NCBI GenBank assembly: GCA_035489715.1
Contig: DATHAP010000004.1
Coordinates: forward strand, 1 to 51,017
DNA length: 51,017 bases
Reading direction: 5' to 3'
From: Actinomycetes bacterium
GTDB lineage: Bacteria > Actinomycetota > Actinomycetes > JACCUZ01
The position numbers were made by a program, and so were the translations under genes. This document shows positions 2,430-7,254 of the stretch, one piece after another. The notes under the pieces are model-generated. The model saw only the letters and a program-made list of their open reading frames with translations. It ran no database searches and was not told the origin of the DNA. The number at the start of each line of letters is the position of its first letter. Position 1 is the first letter of the stretch.

Positions 2430-4613
2430 GTGGCGGAACAGCTGGACGACCATGTGGTCCGAGCCCTCAGCACGGGAGCTCTCCCACGGGCAGCGCACCG
2501 CGACGCCCAGGCGGACGCGGCGCTGCTGTGGCCCCTGTTCGAGGCTCAGGTGCAGAGTCGCCATCTCGACTTCGCCCAGCGCTGGCTGCACGGCCAGGGC
2601 CAGGGGTACTACACCATCAGCTCCGCCGGTCACGAGAGCAACGCCGCTGTGGCCATGGCCTTGCGGCCCAGCGACCCGGCGCTGCTGCACTACCGCAGCG
2701 GCGGCTTCTACAGCGCTCGGGCGGCACAGGTACCGGGTTCCGCGCCGATCCAGGACGTGCTCACCGGTAGCGCGGCGTCGGTCGAGGACCAGATCTCGGG
2801 CGGGCGCCACAAGGTGTTCGGCAGCCGTGACCTGGCCGTCATCCCGCAGACCTCGACGATCGGCTCACACCTTCCGCGCGCCTTCGGCCTGGCCTTCGCG
2901 CTCGGCCAGCAGCTGGCGCCCGAGGCCGCCATCCCGTCGGACGCCGTCGTCGTCTGCAGCTTCGGCGACGCATCGGCCAACCACTCGACGACCGTCGGAG
3001 CACTCAACGCTGCGGGCTACTGCGGGCACCGCGGTCTCCCGATGCCGATCATCTTCGTCTGCGAGGACAACGGCCTCGGGATCAGCACCAGATCGCCGGA
3101 CGGATGGATCCGCCGGGCTCTCTCCACGCGCCCCGGCATCGAGTACCGGGAGGCGGACGGCGACGACCCGGTCCGCCTCCTCCAGGTGACACGCGACGTC
3201 GCCGACACGGTCCGCGCGGAGCGCCGTCCGGCGATCGTGCACCTACGGACCGTCCGCTTCCTCGGACACGCCGGATCCGATGCCGAGCTCTCCTACCGGT
3301 CCTCTCGTGAGGTCCTCGCCGACTACGCCAAGGATCCTCTGCTCGCGACGGCGACGGCCCTGACCGCCGCAGGCGCGGCAACTGCGGACGACCTGCTCGA
3401 GCGCTACGAGAACGTCCGAGCCGACGTGATGGCCTGCGCACGTGGGCTGGCCAACGGCGTGCCCCGCCTGACGTCGGCGCGCGAGGTCGCCGCGCCTCTG
3501 GCCACGCGCTCGCCGGAGCGGGCCCGTCAGGCAGCACTGACCCACGGCCCGGCCAGGGTGAAGGTGTTCGACGGGACGCTGCCCGAGGACTCGGCTCCGC
3601 TCACCCTCGCCCAGGCGATCAACGCAGCTCTGCGCGACGTCCTGGCCGCCTGGCCCCAGGCGTTGGTCTTCGGCCAGGACGTGGGAAGGAAGGGCGGCGT
3701 CTACGGCGTCACCCGACGGCTGCAGAAGCACTTCGGACACGGCAGGGTGTTCGACACCCTGCTGGACGAGCAGACGATCCTCGGAACCGCGCTCGGCGCA
3801 GCCCTTGCCGGGTGCCTGCCCATCCCCGAGATCCAGTACCTGGCCTATCTGCACAACGCCGAGGACCAGCTACGGGGAGAGGCTGCGTCGCTCAAGTTCT
3901 TCTCGAACGGCCAGTACGAGAACGGTCTGGTCGTTCGCATCGCCGGTCTGCCCTACCAGAAGGGATTCGGCGGGCACTTCCACAACGACAACTCCGTGGC
4001 CGTGCTCCGCGACATCCCAGGGCTCGCGCTCGCTGTCCCCAGCGGCCCTGCCAGCGCCCCTGCCCTGCTGCGGGAGTGTGTGGCGTTGGCGGCCACCGAG
4101 GGACGGGTCTGCGTCTACCTAGAGCCCATCGCGCTCTACCACGAGCGGGATCTGTACGACGTGGGGGACGGAGGCCTCCTGGCGCCGTACTCACCGCCGT
4201 CGTCCTGGGACGGCGGGCAGCAGGAACTCGGTCGCGCTCGGCTGATGCAGGAGGGACCCGATGTCCTGCTCGTCACCTTCGGCAACGGGGTGAGGATGAG
4301 CCTGCGCGCGGCTCGCCGACTCGCCGGACACTCGGTTCGCTGCTCAGTCCTCGACCTGCAGTGGCTCGCCCCCCTCCCGCTCGCTGACCTCGTCGCGGCC
4401 GCCCATCGGCATCCACGCGTCGTCGTAGTCGACGAGACCCGCTCGAGCGGCGGCGTCAGCGAAGGCGTCCTGGCTGCCCTGGTGGACGACGGATACGCCG
4501 GGCGGATGGCGCGCGTCACCAGCAGTGACACCTACATCCCCCTGGGTCCAGCGGCCGATCATGTACTGCTCTCGGAGGACCAGGTCGTCCGATGCGTACG
4601 GGCAATCATGTGA
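2430..4613 (+). CDS. 2-oxoacid dehydrogenase E1, fused alpha and beta subunits (727 aa)
   Basis: Thiamine-diphosphate-dependent decarboxylating component of a branched-chain/pyruvate-type 2-oxoacid dehydrogenase. The alpha part (about residues 20-370) has the TPP/Mg site as GDASANHSTT followed by CEDNGLGIS, the family's GDG...N motif in a variant form. The beta part (about 390-727) is a transketolase-like pyrimidine-binding and C-terminal domain, with PEIQYLAYLHNAEDQL and GGHFHNDNS segments. In most bacteria alpha and beta are separate genes; here they are one chain. The start is GTG with AAGGGAG six nt upstream. No E2 or E3 gene is adjacent, so it must pair with distant components or act alone. 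The substrate is undetermined; branched-chain 2-oxoacids are the most likely guess. Confidence 0.85.
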   Translation: MAEQLDDHVVRALSTGALPRAAHRDAQADAALLWPLFEAQVQSRHLDFAQRWLHGQGQGYYTISSAGHESNAAVAMALRPSDPALLHYRSGGFYSARAAQVPGSAPIQDVLTGSAASVEDQISGGRHKVFGSRDLAVIPQTSTIGSHLPRAFGLAFALGQQLAPEAAIPSDAVVVCSFGDASANHSTTVGALNAAGYCGHRGLPMPIIFVCEDNGLGISTRSPDGWIRRALSTRPGIEYREADGDDPVRLLQVTRDVADTVRAERRPAIVHLRTVRFLGHAGSDAELSYRSSREVLADYAKDPLLATATALTAAGAATADDLLERYENVRADVMACARGLANGVPRLTSAREVAAPLATRSPERARQAALTHGPARVKVFDGTLPEDSAPLTLAQAINAALRDVLAAWPQALVFGQDVGRKGGVYGVTRRLQKHFGHGRVFDTLLDEQTILGTALGAALAGCLPIPEIQYLAYLHNAEDQLRGEAASLKFFSNGQYENGLVVRIAGLPYQKGFGGHFHNDNSVAVLRDIPGLALAVPSGPASAPALLRECVALAATEGRVCVYLEPIALYHERDLYDVGDGGLLAPYSPPSSWDGGQQELGRARLMQEGPDVLLVTFGNGVRMSLRAARRLAGHSVRCSVLDLQWLAPLPLADLVAAAHRHPRVVVVDETRSSGGVSEGVLAALVDDGYAGRMARVTSSDTYIPLGPAADHVLLSEDQVVRCVRAIM

Positions 4614-4650: not shown

Positions 4651-5493
4651 TCACCTGGTGGCGACGTCCAAGGGATCGAGATCCGACCGCAGAACCCTGA
4701 CGACGCCGGCGTCCCAGTCCACGGTTTCCACTGCATCCCAGGGCAGGTAGCCGGCGTTGCGGTGAATGCGGCGCACGATGCGGCGCAGCAGCCAAGGGCC
4801 TTGCCGGGCGCGGCGGTCGTAGCCGAGCATGGAGCCGACGTGACGGCCGTCGACGACCAGGCCGTCGACCACCAGACGCGGCAAGACGCCCTCGACACCG
4901 GACGTCGGCGCGAGGCGCACATCGGCGAGGAAGCCGAGCCGGACCCCGTCAGGTCCGAGGACCGGAAGCCCGAGCAGGTGCACCATCCGCCTTCGCCCTG
5001 CCACGTCGTCGTCGGCTCGCTCGCGCGCCTGTCGCGCCTCCATGGTCGGCGGGTGCTGCTCGCTCGGTTCGTCCTCGTCGGAGGCGAGCGGGAGCCGCCC
5101 GACGACGTGCTCACGGACCCACCGCTCCGAGCCGTCGACGCCGAGCCCGGCGGTGCGGCGGCCGACGTGGACGGCGCTGTCGACCCGGACCAGGTCGCCC
5201 ATCGGGATCCTCCCGGGTCGCGGCTGCTCCGCCGGGTGCAGCCGCGACCAGACAGCGACCATCCACTCGCCCAGGCGGCCGTGCATGCGGGGTCCGAGCG
5301 CGCCAGGACCGGTCAGGACCGCGGAAAGGGTGATCCGACGGTCGGCGCCCTCGGCGACCTCGAGGTCGTCGACCTTGGCCACCAGTCGGCCGTCCGGGTC
5401 GACCAGCTGGCGATCCAGCAGGTGCAGCGCCGCGTCGTACCGACGGCCCGCCACCACCGGGGACGCCGCTATCGGATCCTTGCCGGCTGCCAT
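4651..5493 (-). CDS. PRC-barrel-like protein coupled to NRAMP transporter (280 aa)
   Basis: Last gene of the NRAMP cassette. Two stretches look like PRC-barrel repeats: residues about 15-70 (a LLDRQLVDPDGRLVAKVDDLEV stretch, quoted here in part as DPDGRLVAKVDD) and about 145-215 (VLGPDGVRLGFLADVRL). The second is followed by an Arg-rich segment and YLPWDAVETVDW, which matches the way PRC-barrel domains end. There is no signal peptide or membrane span, so it is cytoplasmic. PRC-barrel domains are often found with MgtE-N or CBS domains beside divergent NRAMP proteins in actinobacteria, which suggests a regulatory or gating role; this is inference. The ATG overlaps the transporter's TGA (TGATG), implying translational coupling. 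Confidence 0.75.
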   Translation of the reverse strand: MAAGKDPIAASPVVAGRRYDAALHLLDRQLVDPDGRLVAKVDDLEVAEGADRRITLSAVLTGPGALGPRMHGRLGEWMVAVWSRLHPAEQPRPGRIPMGDLVRVDSAVHVGRRTAGLGVDGSERWVREHVVGRLPLASDEDEPSEQHPPTMEARQARERADDDVAGRRRMVHLLGLPVLGPDGVRLGFLADVRLAPTSGVEGVLPRLVVDGLVVDGRHVGSMLGYDRRARQGPWLLRRIVRRIHRNAGYLPWDAVETVDWDAGVVRVLRSDLDPLDVATR

Positions 5494-6722
5494 CACATGC
5501 CTGCCTTCGTGACCAGCATCAACGGGAGGGCGGAAACCGCTGCGACGAGGATGATGACGAGGTACAAGGAGCCGAGGCCGTTCGCGAGCCGGCCGTTGAC
5601 CCGGTCGCCCATGTAGTCGGGGTCGTTGGCCACGACCAGGATCGGGAAGTACGTCAGCGGCAGCGCCACCGCCGAGAACACGACGGAGTACTCCGTAACC
5701 TTGATGGGGTCGACCGTCGTCAGCAGCAGGGCGGCAGCGACGATGCTGCAGAGCAACAGCGTCGCGTGGAACCGGCTGGCCTGGGCGGGCCGCACGTACT
5801 TGCCCCACTGCCAGCCGAAGTACTGCGAGATGCTGTAACCGACCGAGAGCCCGGTTTCGCAGGCTGCGCCGTACGTTGCCGCGAAGAACCCGAGCAGCGC
5901 GACGGCGAGACCGAGCTTTCCGAGTGCCACGGCCACCGGCAGGCCTACCTGGGCGAGGGTGTCCACCTCGATCCCCGCGGGCTGCAGGACGAGCGCCGTG
6001 CTGGCGGCGATGGCGACCGACAACAGGCCGCCGAGTGGGAACCCGACGAACACGTTGGCGCGCATCGTCGCGAGGTCCCTCGTGCCCCAGTGCTCCTCGA
6101 CGCCGCCGGAGGAGAAGAAGAAGACCTCGTACGGCGTCATCGCAGCACCGAAGAGCGCGACAGCGTAGTACGCGTACGTCGGCAGCCCCTCGCCGGCGGG
6201 CTTGGTCGGGTGCGTCGCCTCGTGCCACAAGGCGGCGTAGTCGGGCCCGAGACGCCACACGGCGACAGCAAAGACGACCAGTGCCAGCCCCATTAGACCG
6301 AAGACGTTCTCGATGAGCGAGAATCTCGCCCGCCACAGGACTACCCAGACCGCGGCGGCCACCAGCGGCACCCACAGCAGCTCGTTGACGCTGCTCGCCA
6401 GCTCGAGCGCCAGGGCGACGCCGCCGATCTCGGCGACGAAGGTCAGCAGGGTCACCGCCATCGACGCGAGCAGGTTCGCCAGGCCGACGCGGGGCCCGAG
6501 CCGCTCCCGGACCAGGTCGAAGGTCGCGCGGCCACTGACGGCGGCGACGCGGCCGCTCATCTCGGCGAACACGCAGATGCCGACGACGCCGACGGCGACC
6601 ACCCAGACGAGTGACAGCCCGAACCGGGCGCCCACGAGAGCGTTGGTGACCAGATCTCCGATGTCGACGAAGCCGCCGATCGCAGTGAGGACCCCGAGGG
6701 CGACGGCGAAGTACTTCTTCAC
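5493..6722 (-). CDS. divergent NRAMP (SLC11)-family metal transporter (409 aa)
   Basis: Polytopic inner-membrane protein with about 11 hydrophobic spans and the NRAMP fold signature in altered form. In TM1 the canonical DPGN metal motif reads DIGD (FVDIGDLVTNA). In TM6 the canonical MPH reads TPY (AAMTPYEVFFFSS). Loss of the TM6 Met and TM1 Asn removes key soft-metal ligands of Mn/Fe transporters. Divergent SLC11 members that lost this Met include Mg2+ (NRMT) and Al3+ (NRAT) transporters, so a hard-cation substrate is plausible but not proven. The start is GTG with GAGGAG eight nt upstream, overlapping the lipoprotein stop by 4 bp (GTGA). Downstream it overlaps the PRC-barrel gene. Confidence 0.85.
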   Translation of the reverse strand: MKKYFAVALGVLTAIGGFVDIGDLVTNALVGARFGLSLVWVVAVGVVGICVFAEMSGRVAAVSGRATFDLVRERLGPRVGLANLLASMAVTLLTFVAEIGGVALALELASSVNELLWVPLVAAAVWVVLWRARFSLIENVFGLMGLALVVFAVAVWRLGPDYAALWHEATHPTKPAGEGLPTYAYYAVALFGAAMTPYEVFFFSSGGVEEHWGTRDLATMRANVFVGFPLGGLLSVAIAASTALVLQPAGIEVDTLAQVGLPVAVALGKLGLAVALLGFFAATYGAACETGLSVGYSISQYFGWQWGKYVRPAQASRFHATLLLCSIVAAALLLTTVDPIKVTEYSVVFSAVALPLTYFPILVVANDPDYMGDRVNGRLANGLGSLYLVIILVAAVSALPLMLVTKAGM

Positions 6723-7165
6723 GACAGGCGCTCCTCGGCACGCGCCAGGTCACCCGCGACGCCGCGCAGCTCCTCCGCCGCGTCGCCGGTACCGACCGGG
6801 TCGCTGCGCCGGGCGGCGATGCGTGCGTGGCCGACGGCGTCCTCGGCGTCGGACAGTAGACCGGCGATCGCGTCGCGCAGCTCGTCGTCACCGCGTGGCG
6901 GCTGGACGGAGCGGAACGTCGTCGCGATCGAGCCGACCGCCTCCTCGTTCGCGGTCAGGGTCTCATCGGCGTACGGGGTGAAGATGCGGTGCCGCGAGAG
7001 CAGCTGCAGGACGAGCCGCGCCGTCTGCACCTCGCTGGTCGCGGCCCGCACCGAAGTGACGGCCTTGTCGCTGTACGAGTCGTGGCCGGTCGCCGGCGTG
7101 ACACAGCTGGCGAGGAGCAGTGCAGTCACGCTGAGGCCGGCAACCCGGCGGCCCGGGCCGGTCAC
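6719..7165 (-). CDS. lipoprotein, NRAMP cassette (148 aa)
   Basis: Unrecognised family. The N-terminus, MTGPGRRVAGLSV with a basic n-region and hydrophobic core, ends in the lipobox LLASC, giving Cys21 as the lipidated residue. The mature part is about 128 residues, largely helical and rich in Ala, Glu and Asp, with no Cys and no obvious ligand motif; it is likely an extracytoplasmic helical bundle. GTG 7165 is preferred because it overlaps the upstream 30-codon gene's stop (GTGA) and places the lipobox at the usual distance; the frame is open further upstream to 7261, but that extension would be an untypical Arg-rich leader. The stop overlaps the transporter start by 4 bp. It probably acts as an accessory or sensor subunit of the transporter (inference). 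Confidence 0.75.
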   Translation of the reverse strand: MTGPGRRVAGLSVTALLLASCVTPATGHDSYSDKAVTSVRAATSEVQTARLVLQLLSRHRIFTPYADETLTANEEAVGSIATTFRSVQPPRGDDELRDAIAGLLSDAEDAVGHARIAARRSDPVGTGDAAEELRGVAGDLARAEERLS

Positions 7166-7254
7166 CGGCGTCCACTCAGCAAGAAGTAGCCGAGGACCCC
7201 GAGCAGGACGAGGAGCTCGAGCCATCCGAAAGCGAGCGCGAAACCGTCGGTCAC
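7162..7254 (-). CDS. 30-aa single-span membrane peptide, first gene of NRAMP cassette
   Basis: A short gene: MTDGFALAFGWLELLVLLG followed by a further hydrophobic stretch and the C-terminus SGRR. Residues about 5-27 form one transmembrane helix with a positively charged C-terminal end. The GTG start has AGGAAAG nine nt upstream, and the TGA overlaps the lipoprotein's GTG (GTGA), the same coupling seen at the other junctions of the cassette. Such small hydrophobic peptides are known as modulators of other transporters; here the role is inferred only from position. No family is recognised. Confidence 0.65.
   Translation of the reverse strand: MTDGFALAFGWLELLVLLGVLGYFLLSGRR

Follow-up and report, generated by a model that had tools for sequence, protein, structure and literature searches.

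Within a 51,017-nucleotide stretch of actinobacterial DNA (hereafter the window; contig DATHAP010000004.1 of assembly GCA_035489715.1, positions 1 to 51,017), four overlapping genes on the minus strand encode, in order, a membrane peptide, a lipoprotein, an Nramp-related transporter and a tandem PRC-barrel protein. The transporter belongs to a clade of its own, marked by an invariant DxxD motif, its lipoprotein and PRC partners are near-constant, and the PRC protein is homologous to proteins associated with NRMT transporters; these three points go beyond the first-pass annotation, which had been made from the letters of the window. The DIGD transporters, called so here after their motif on transmembrane helix (TM) 1, apparently represent an undescribed branch of the NRAMP family and look like a further PF01566 clade, widespread in actinobacteria and with an invariant site of its own. 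We propose that the cassette, which is conserved among soil actinobacteria, is an operon for the import of a hard divalent cation (Mg2+ and/or Mn2+) without canonical proton coupling and under cytosolic control by the PRC protein, a reading that we regard as evenly poised between right and wrong.

Ion site of the transporter

The transporter gene (5493..6722, minus strand, as are all cassette coordinates below) encodes 409 amino acids. The protein matched PF01566 over profile positions 2-356 of 357 with 160.3 bits (8.6e-47; gathering cut-off 29.8), and its closest solved relative was EleNRMT (PDB 7qia, 2.5e-32). Relatives were searched for in one genome per species. The best 80 of 437 related stretches were kept (65-77% identical in the best segment), and the transporter alignment comprised 81 sequences, 80 of which cover the sites from T196 onward. 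The kept loci span Intrasporangiaceae, Nocardioidaceae, Streptosporangiaceae, Kribbellaceae, Mycobacteriaceae, Microbacteriaceae, Cellulomonadaceae, Frankiales and others.

Alignment to DraNramp agreed with the first-pass reading of the two central motifs: D56-P-G-N59 on TM1 corresponds to D20-I-G-D23 (6654..6665), and M230-P-H232 on TM6 to T196-P-Y198, followed by E199 (6126..6137). The residues D20, I21, G22 and D23, together with E98 on TM3 (6429..6431), the retained proton-pathway acid equivalent to DraNramp E134, are invariant in 81/81 family sequences. Equally invariant, in all 80 sequences that cover them, are T196, P197, Y198, E199, E289 on TM8 (5856..5858) and E344 on TM10 (5691..5693). 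The conserved, altered site is more than chance.

The resulting clade signature, DxxD on TM1 and AxxT-P-Y-E on TM6, differs from the published signatures of canonical Nramps (DxxN-A/CxxM), NRMTs (DxxG-TxxA/T) and the plant Al3+ transporter NRAT (DxxN-AxxT). The AxxT of TM6 is shared with NRAT, but the cassette transporter is bacterial, has DxxD rather than DxxN on TM1, and its phmmer similarity to the solved NRAT was weaker and partial. With canonical Slc11/MntH proteins (DraNramp; clades A-C) it shares the fold family and the positions D56, A227, T130 and E134, whereas D131, H232, H237, R352, R353, Q378 and Q89 are all replaced. At the positions that are 230, 232 and 59 in DraNramp the clade has threonine, tyrosine and aspartate, with S350 at that of L381 and V347 at that of Q378. 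Of the replaced residues, D131, H232, H237, R352 and R353 belong to the canonical proton pathway on TM3, TM6 and TM9, and their loss with E134 kept is like that in the proton-uncoupled EleNRMT and partly like that in BfraNramp.

Every DIGD sequence that covers the positions has the four acids D23, E199, E289 and E344, none of which occurs in the canonical and NRMT-like proteins used for comparison. At the E289 position the canonical proteins have Val or Thr and the NRMT-like ones Val or Ile, while the E344 position is hydrophobic in canonical proteins and nearly always so in NRMT-like ones. In the structure of DraNramp M230A, H232 flips to the carbonyl of G330 on TM8. According to the alignment G330 adjoins the E289 position and E344 lies one turn before the lost Q378, so both acids may be near the ion, a placement that draws on alignment and literature.

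Phylogenetic position

In a maximum-likelihood tree of 61 proteins, the DIGD clade, the NRMT-like proteins (with EleNRMT) and the canonical Nramps (with DraNramp and BfraNramp) were each recovered at 100/99. Midpoint rooting placed the DIGD clade outside the NRMT clade, as its sister, with the split supported at 98/92. Two relatives, L093 (partial, 38-39% identity) and L090 (50% identity, DMGS on TM1 and Asp at the E344 position), fell at the base of the DIGD clade. A second sample, of 396 genomes drawn from the phylum, gave full-length matches of at least 50% identity; these were set off from NRMT-like and other members, which matched at 23-32%.

According to Cellier, PF01566 comprises three clades, namely Slc11, an orphan outgroup and NRMT. 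The outgroup resembles the DIGD proteins in belonging to PF01566, in being non-canonical and in having Tyr at the H232 position. It was represented in the tree by a single outgroup-like sequence, L109, which was assigned by motif match. This protein has V-P-Y on TM6, with Val at the Met position, where the DIGD clade has T-P-Y; it lacks the TM1 Asp, differs on TM3 and groups away from the DIGD clade. With one such sequence in the tree, the DIGD clade is likely separate from the orphan outgroup. One genome (G038) carries a canonical, an NRMT-like and a DIGD transporter at once (L084, L108 and L112), which suggests separate roles for the three types and a task of its own for the DIGD clade.

Some members of the tree and of the search stand out in other respects. 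Five NRMT-like proteins (L094, L095, L096, L097 and L101) form a subgroup with GASG, in which Gly replaces the TM1 Asp described as universal in SLC11. In a metagenome-assembled genome labelled Acidobacteria (L034), we found a cassette with 72% identity to that of the window. In the tree it is nested among Nocardioidaceae, which could be due to transfer or to a mis-binned contig. Contig4 of Cellulomonas sp. HZM has two apparently identical cassettes (L071 and L072), oppositely oriented and about 124 kb from each other, reflecting either a duplication or an assembly effect.

Cassette architecture and partner proteins

Coordinates and overlaps confirmed that all junctions of the four-gene cassette overlap: GTGA between peptide and lipoprotein (7162..7165), GTGA between lipoprotein and transporter (6719..6722) and TGATG between transporter and PRC protein (5491..5495). 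This anatomy, which the first-pass annotation had described correctly, is more general than one window could show. The absence of the partners from homologous loci had been named as an outcome that would speak against a multi-subunit transporter, and this is not what was found. The lipoprotein gene lies directly upstream of the transporter gene in 78/79 loci, with an identical 4-nucleotide overlap in 65, and both PRC modules lie downstream in 77/77; the profiles behind these counts were built from the same loci, and in separately found loci (L083-L092) the lipoprotein was present in 9/10 and the PRC protein in 10/10. The four-gene order is near-constant as regards lipoprotein and PRC protein, but it does not extend to the peptide, the motif of which occurs in 29/78 loci.

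The PRC-barrel protein (4651..5493) is 280 amino acids long and predicted to be cytosolic. Its AlphaFold2 (AF2) model shows two barrels with a predicted local distance difference test score (pLDDT) of 87, and the best Foldseek match was CdpB1/CdpB2 (8qzo, 4.6e-6). Module A (5083..5445) carries the signature LLDRQ.VD..G....KVDDLE, in which Q29, D42 and G62 are conserved in 62/62 sequences, D27 in 61/62 and D43 in 60/62. Module B (4678..4995), with G224-Y225 in 47/47, shares one open reading frame (ORF) with module A in 51 of the 77 loci and forms a separate ORF otherwise. The PRC-barrel identity given in the first-pass annotation is right at the family level, since 32/66 members matched PF05239, although the copy of the window itself falls below the Pfam threshold.

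In 13/15 loci with an NRMT-like transporter, the PRC profile also matched the gene immediately upstream of it (2.9e-4 to 1.8e-12), and at one of the remaining loci the contig ends there. When seven NRMT-adjacent genes were scanned, PRC was detected in 7/7, MgtE_N in 6/7 (two just below the cut-off) and CBS in 4/7. A profile-profile comparison of the cassette PRC protein with the NRMT partners by hhalign gave a probability of 96.4% and an E-value of 1.3e-9, and LLDRQ-VD--G----KVDD of the cassette corresponds to LL[DN][RK]QIVD--G-K-VRV-D of the NRMT partners; a signature common to the tandem modules of both can be written as LL[DN][RK]Q.VD..G....[KR]V.D. Generic PRC similarity is an unlikely source of this link, because at the scale of the host genome the profile found its own gene alone, with nothing else at E<=10, and ignored the host's own PRC-MgtE_N-CBS protein. 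These sequence comparisons show homology of the cassette PRC protein with the PRC portion of the PRC-MgtE_N-CBS proteins beside NRMTs, from which it differs in consisting of PRC modules only. The host protein just mentioned (L123:934-2268, genome G000, contig C16) is a stand-alone PRC-PRC-MgtE_N-CBS-like protein that adjoins no NRAMP gene, and the host has no NRMT-like transporter.

Shin et al. noticed that NrmT genes come with a companion gene, homologous to the N-terminal domain of MgtE, for which they speculated on a role in cytoplasmic feedback regulation. In the open-licence literature, our search turned up no paper that links PRC barrels to NRAMP proteins. Tandem PRC modules emerge here as a companion that Nramp-related transporters have in common, including those of the EleNRMT type, for which a structure has been solved.

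The lipoprotein (6719..7165; 148 amino acids) has its lipobox Cys at residue 21 (LLASC; 7103..7105). This Cys is conserved in 55/55 sequences and always preceded by G, A or S, in keeping with the signal peptide of a bacterial lipoprotein. The AF2 model (mean pLDDT 92.1) predicts four long helices after the lipobox. Fold matches to PsbQ, TarH-like proteins and cytochrome c' were not significant (best E 0.013) and indicate a four-helix bundle only. NCBIfam toxin-subunit matches were regarded as noise, with E-values of 0.035-0.19 and 12-14 bits against cut-offs of 175-204, and they begin in the signal-peptide region. Among the lipoprotein columns, none of His or Cys other than that of the lipobox reached 50%, and a single acidic column reached at least 75%; a role as metal-binding protein was rejected, as conserved metal ligands are lacking. 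The lipoprotein sets the cassette apart from NRMT-like loci, which gave no match to the lipoprotein profile. Likewise, neither PRC nor lipoprotein matches were obtained in the canonical loci searched, which had short flanks.

The membrane peptide (MTDGFALAFGWLELLVLLGVLGYFLLSGRR; 7162..7254) has 30 amino acids, a GTG start and a single predicted helix. Its motif is centred on [DE]G..L..[AG]W...LL.RR, and comparable hydrophobic short ORFs occurred at 3/405 control positions. The variation by codon position is weakly coding-like, and support comes from the amino-acid motif and the position. As the peptide is lineage-limited, it cannot be an essential subunit family-wide.

Transported ion and proposed mechanism

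The first-pass annotation had suggested that the usual selectivity ligands are lost and that the cassette might be a multi-subunit transporter for a hard cation (Mg2+, for instance) or for another ion. The site is indeed non-canonical throughout the clade, and a multi-subunit Mg2+ transporter is plausible, but the motifs do not imply that Mn2+ transport is lost. DraNramp N59D keeps moderate Mn2+ import, EleNRMT carries both Mg2+ and Mn2+, and the one NrmT relative from A. capsulatum behaved as a Mn2+ transporter. On the other hand, Mg2+ is pointed to by the sister clade NRMT, the Thr at the Met position and the PRC link. A published deep mutational scan of DraNramp gave M230A/S/T as the top single changes for Mg2+ import, and H232Y was found in Mg2+-importing variants, mostly alongside changes at L381 or C382 (L381N, C382S). 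The likeliest ion is magnesium or manganese.

In the proposed mechanism, the LeuT-fold transporter would most likely take up Mg2+ and/or Mn2+ through an oxygen-ligand site formed by D20, D23, T196 and a backbone carbonyl near A193. The tandem PRC-barrel protein would most likely dock on the inner face and adjust transport to the internal ion level, a role modelled on the PRC-MgtE_N-CBS proteins, which are thought to act in this way on NRMTs. Outside the membrane, the four-helix lipoprotein could stabilise or gate the outer face, and the membrane peptide may be an optional accessory. The analysis establishes the anatomy, the conservation, the clade, the site residues, the loss of canonical proton-pathway residues and the homology of the PRC protein with NRMT partners; which ion is carried, the missing proton coupling, a sensing function and physical contacts among the parts are points that we infer. 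EleNRMT offers the nearest comparison: it too belongs to PF01566, has lost the canonical proton-pathway residues, keeps the TM1 Asp and TM3 Glu and has a neighbouring gene with a homologous tandem PRC module. The cassette differs from it in the DxxD-AxxT site and the lost TM10 Gln, and in a PRC partner without CBS and without MgtE_N, the latter being described for most NRMT partners.

Several observations weigh against this mechanism. In the host genome (completeness 98.5%) the transporter is the sole PF01566 protein, with no canonical MntH, and no ZnuA/MntC-type binding protein or importer was found, while CorA is encoded; in this host, Mn2+ is thereby favoured over Mg2+. No relevant Rfam family for a Mg2+ or Mn2+ riboswitch reached the gathering score in the window and 19 other loci (one tRNA only), and two weak matches upstream in the window were at chance level; riboswitch control was rejected. 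The sensor part made up of MgtE_N and CBS is missing from the PRC protein, and the TM10 Gln lost from the clade is important in both EleNRMT and DraNramp. Moreover, conversion of the EcoDMT site to NRMT residues did not confer Mg2+ transport, and motifs alone therefore do not fix the ion.

The same host inventory would suit a mainly Mn2+ (possibly Fe2+) importer with a different site that replaces MntH in some hosts, as would the handling of Mn2+ by N59D DraNramp, EleNRMT and the A. capsulatum protein. We consider this possible, if on the unlikely side: a strong canonical-type NRAMP is also present in 5/12 sampled DIGD-carrying genomes, and without the Met ligand a transporter normally no longer discriminates against Mg2+ and Ca2+, which are far more abundant. 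A plain replacement of MntH was rejected, as carriers with and without strong canonical matches both exist. The extra acids D23, E199, E289 and E344 could instead serve another ion, be it Ca2+, a trivalent ion (Al3+, Fe3+ or a lanthanide) or a monovalent one. Their invariance and their absence from the compared canonical and NRMT-like proteins fit this idea, as do the NRAT-type AxxT of TM6 and a report of an NRAMP gene beside the lanthanide-dependent XoxF3 in Acidobacteria. It appears quite unlikely to us, since no context gene points to such ions and no pyrroloquinoline quinone (PQQ) alcohol dehydrogenase scored above the cut-off in 12 DIGD-carrying genomes, for which reason a lanthanide link via XoxF was rejected.

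The near-constant partners and the frequent stress- or regulator-type neighbours (sigma-factor-like, ANTAR-like, SDR) could also be taken to mean that the membrane protein serves as receptor or sensor instead of a working importer and that the PRC protein and the lipoprotein are its signalling parts. This is very improbable, given that the ion-site residues are fully conserved, that the sister clade transports and that no output domain is recognised in the PRC protein. Rather doubtful, too, is the bolder view that the cassette is the first obligate multi-component NRAMP system, in which a DxxD transporter would need a cytosolic PRC gate and an extracytoplasmic lipoprotein and the extra buried acids would mean an ion other than Mg2+/Mn2+ or a different coupling. 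NRAMP proteins have usually been studied as lone transporters, whereas the DIGD transporters have near-constant partners; the cassette offers candidate regulators for a branch without established ones, and with this clade nature supplies a test of how ion selectivity depends on the NRAMP site.

Genomic neighbourhood

The cassette is often set among stress-type genes, as far as their names, a reading of the sequences, allow. In several loci (L014, L016, L029, L036, L045, L048 and others), the region about 1-4 kb upstream of the transporter holds what we take to be a GSP39-like SDR, PAS/GAF-ANTAR regulators and a DUF6328-like membrane protein, and a presumed SigB/F-like sigma factor lies near the cassette in some other loci. 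In several Nocardioides, the place of the peptide is taken by what is presumably also a DUF6328-like membrane protein. Promoters of the SigB/F or SigH/R type were each found in 1/66 upstream regions and were unconvincing. As no stress promoter was enriched, we treat the neighbourhood as context only. On the other side of the cassette and convergent with it, the plus strand of the window carries one ORF (2430-4613) that, read by eye, resembles a fusion of 2-oxoacid dehydrogenase E1 alpha and beta.

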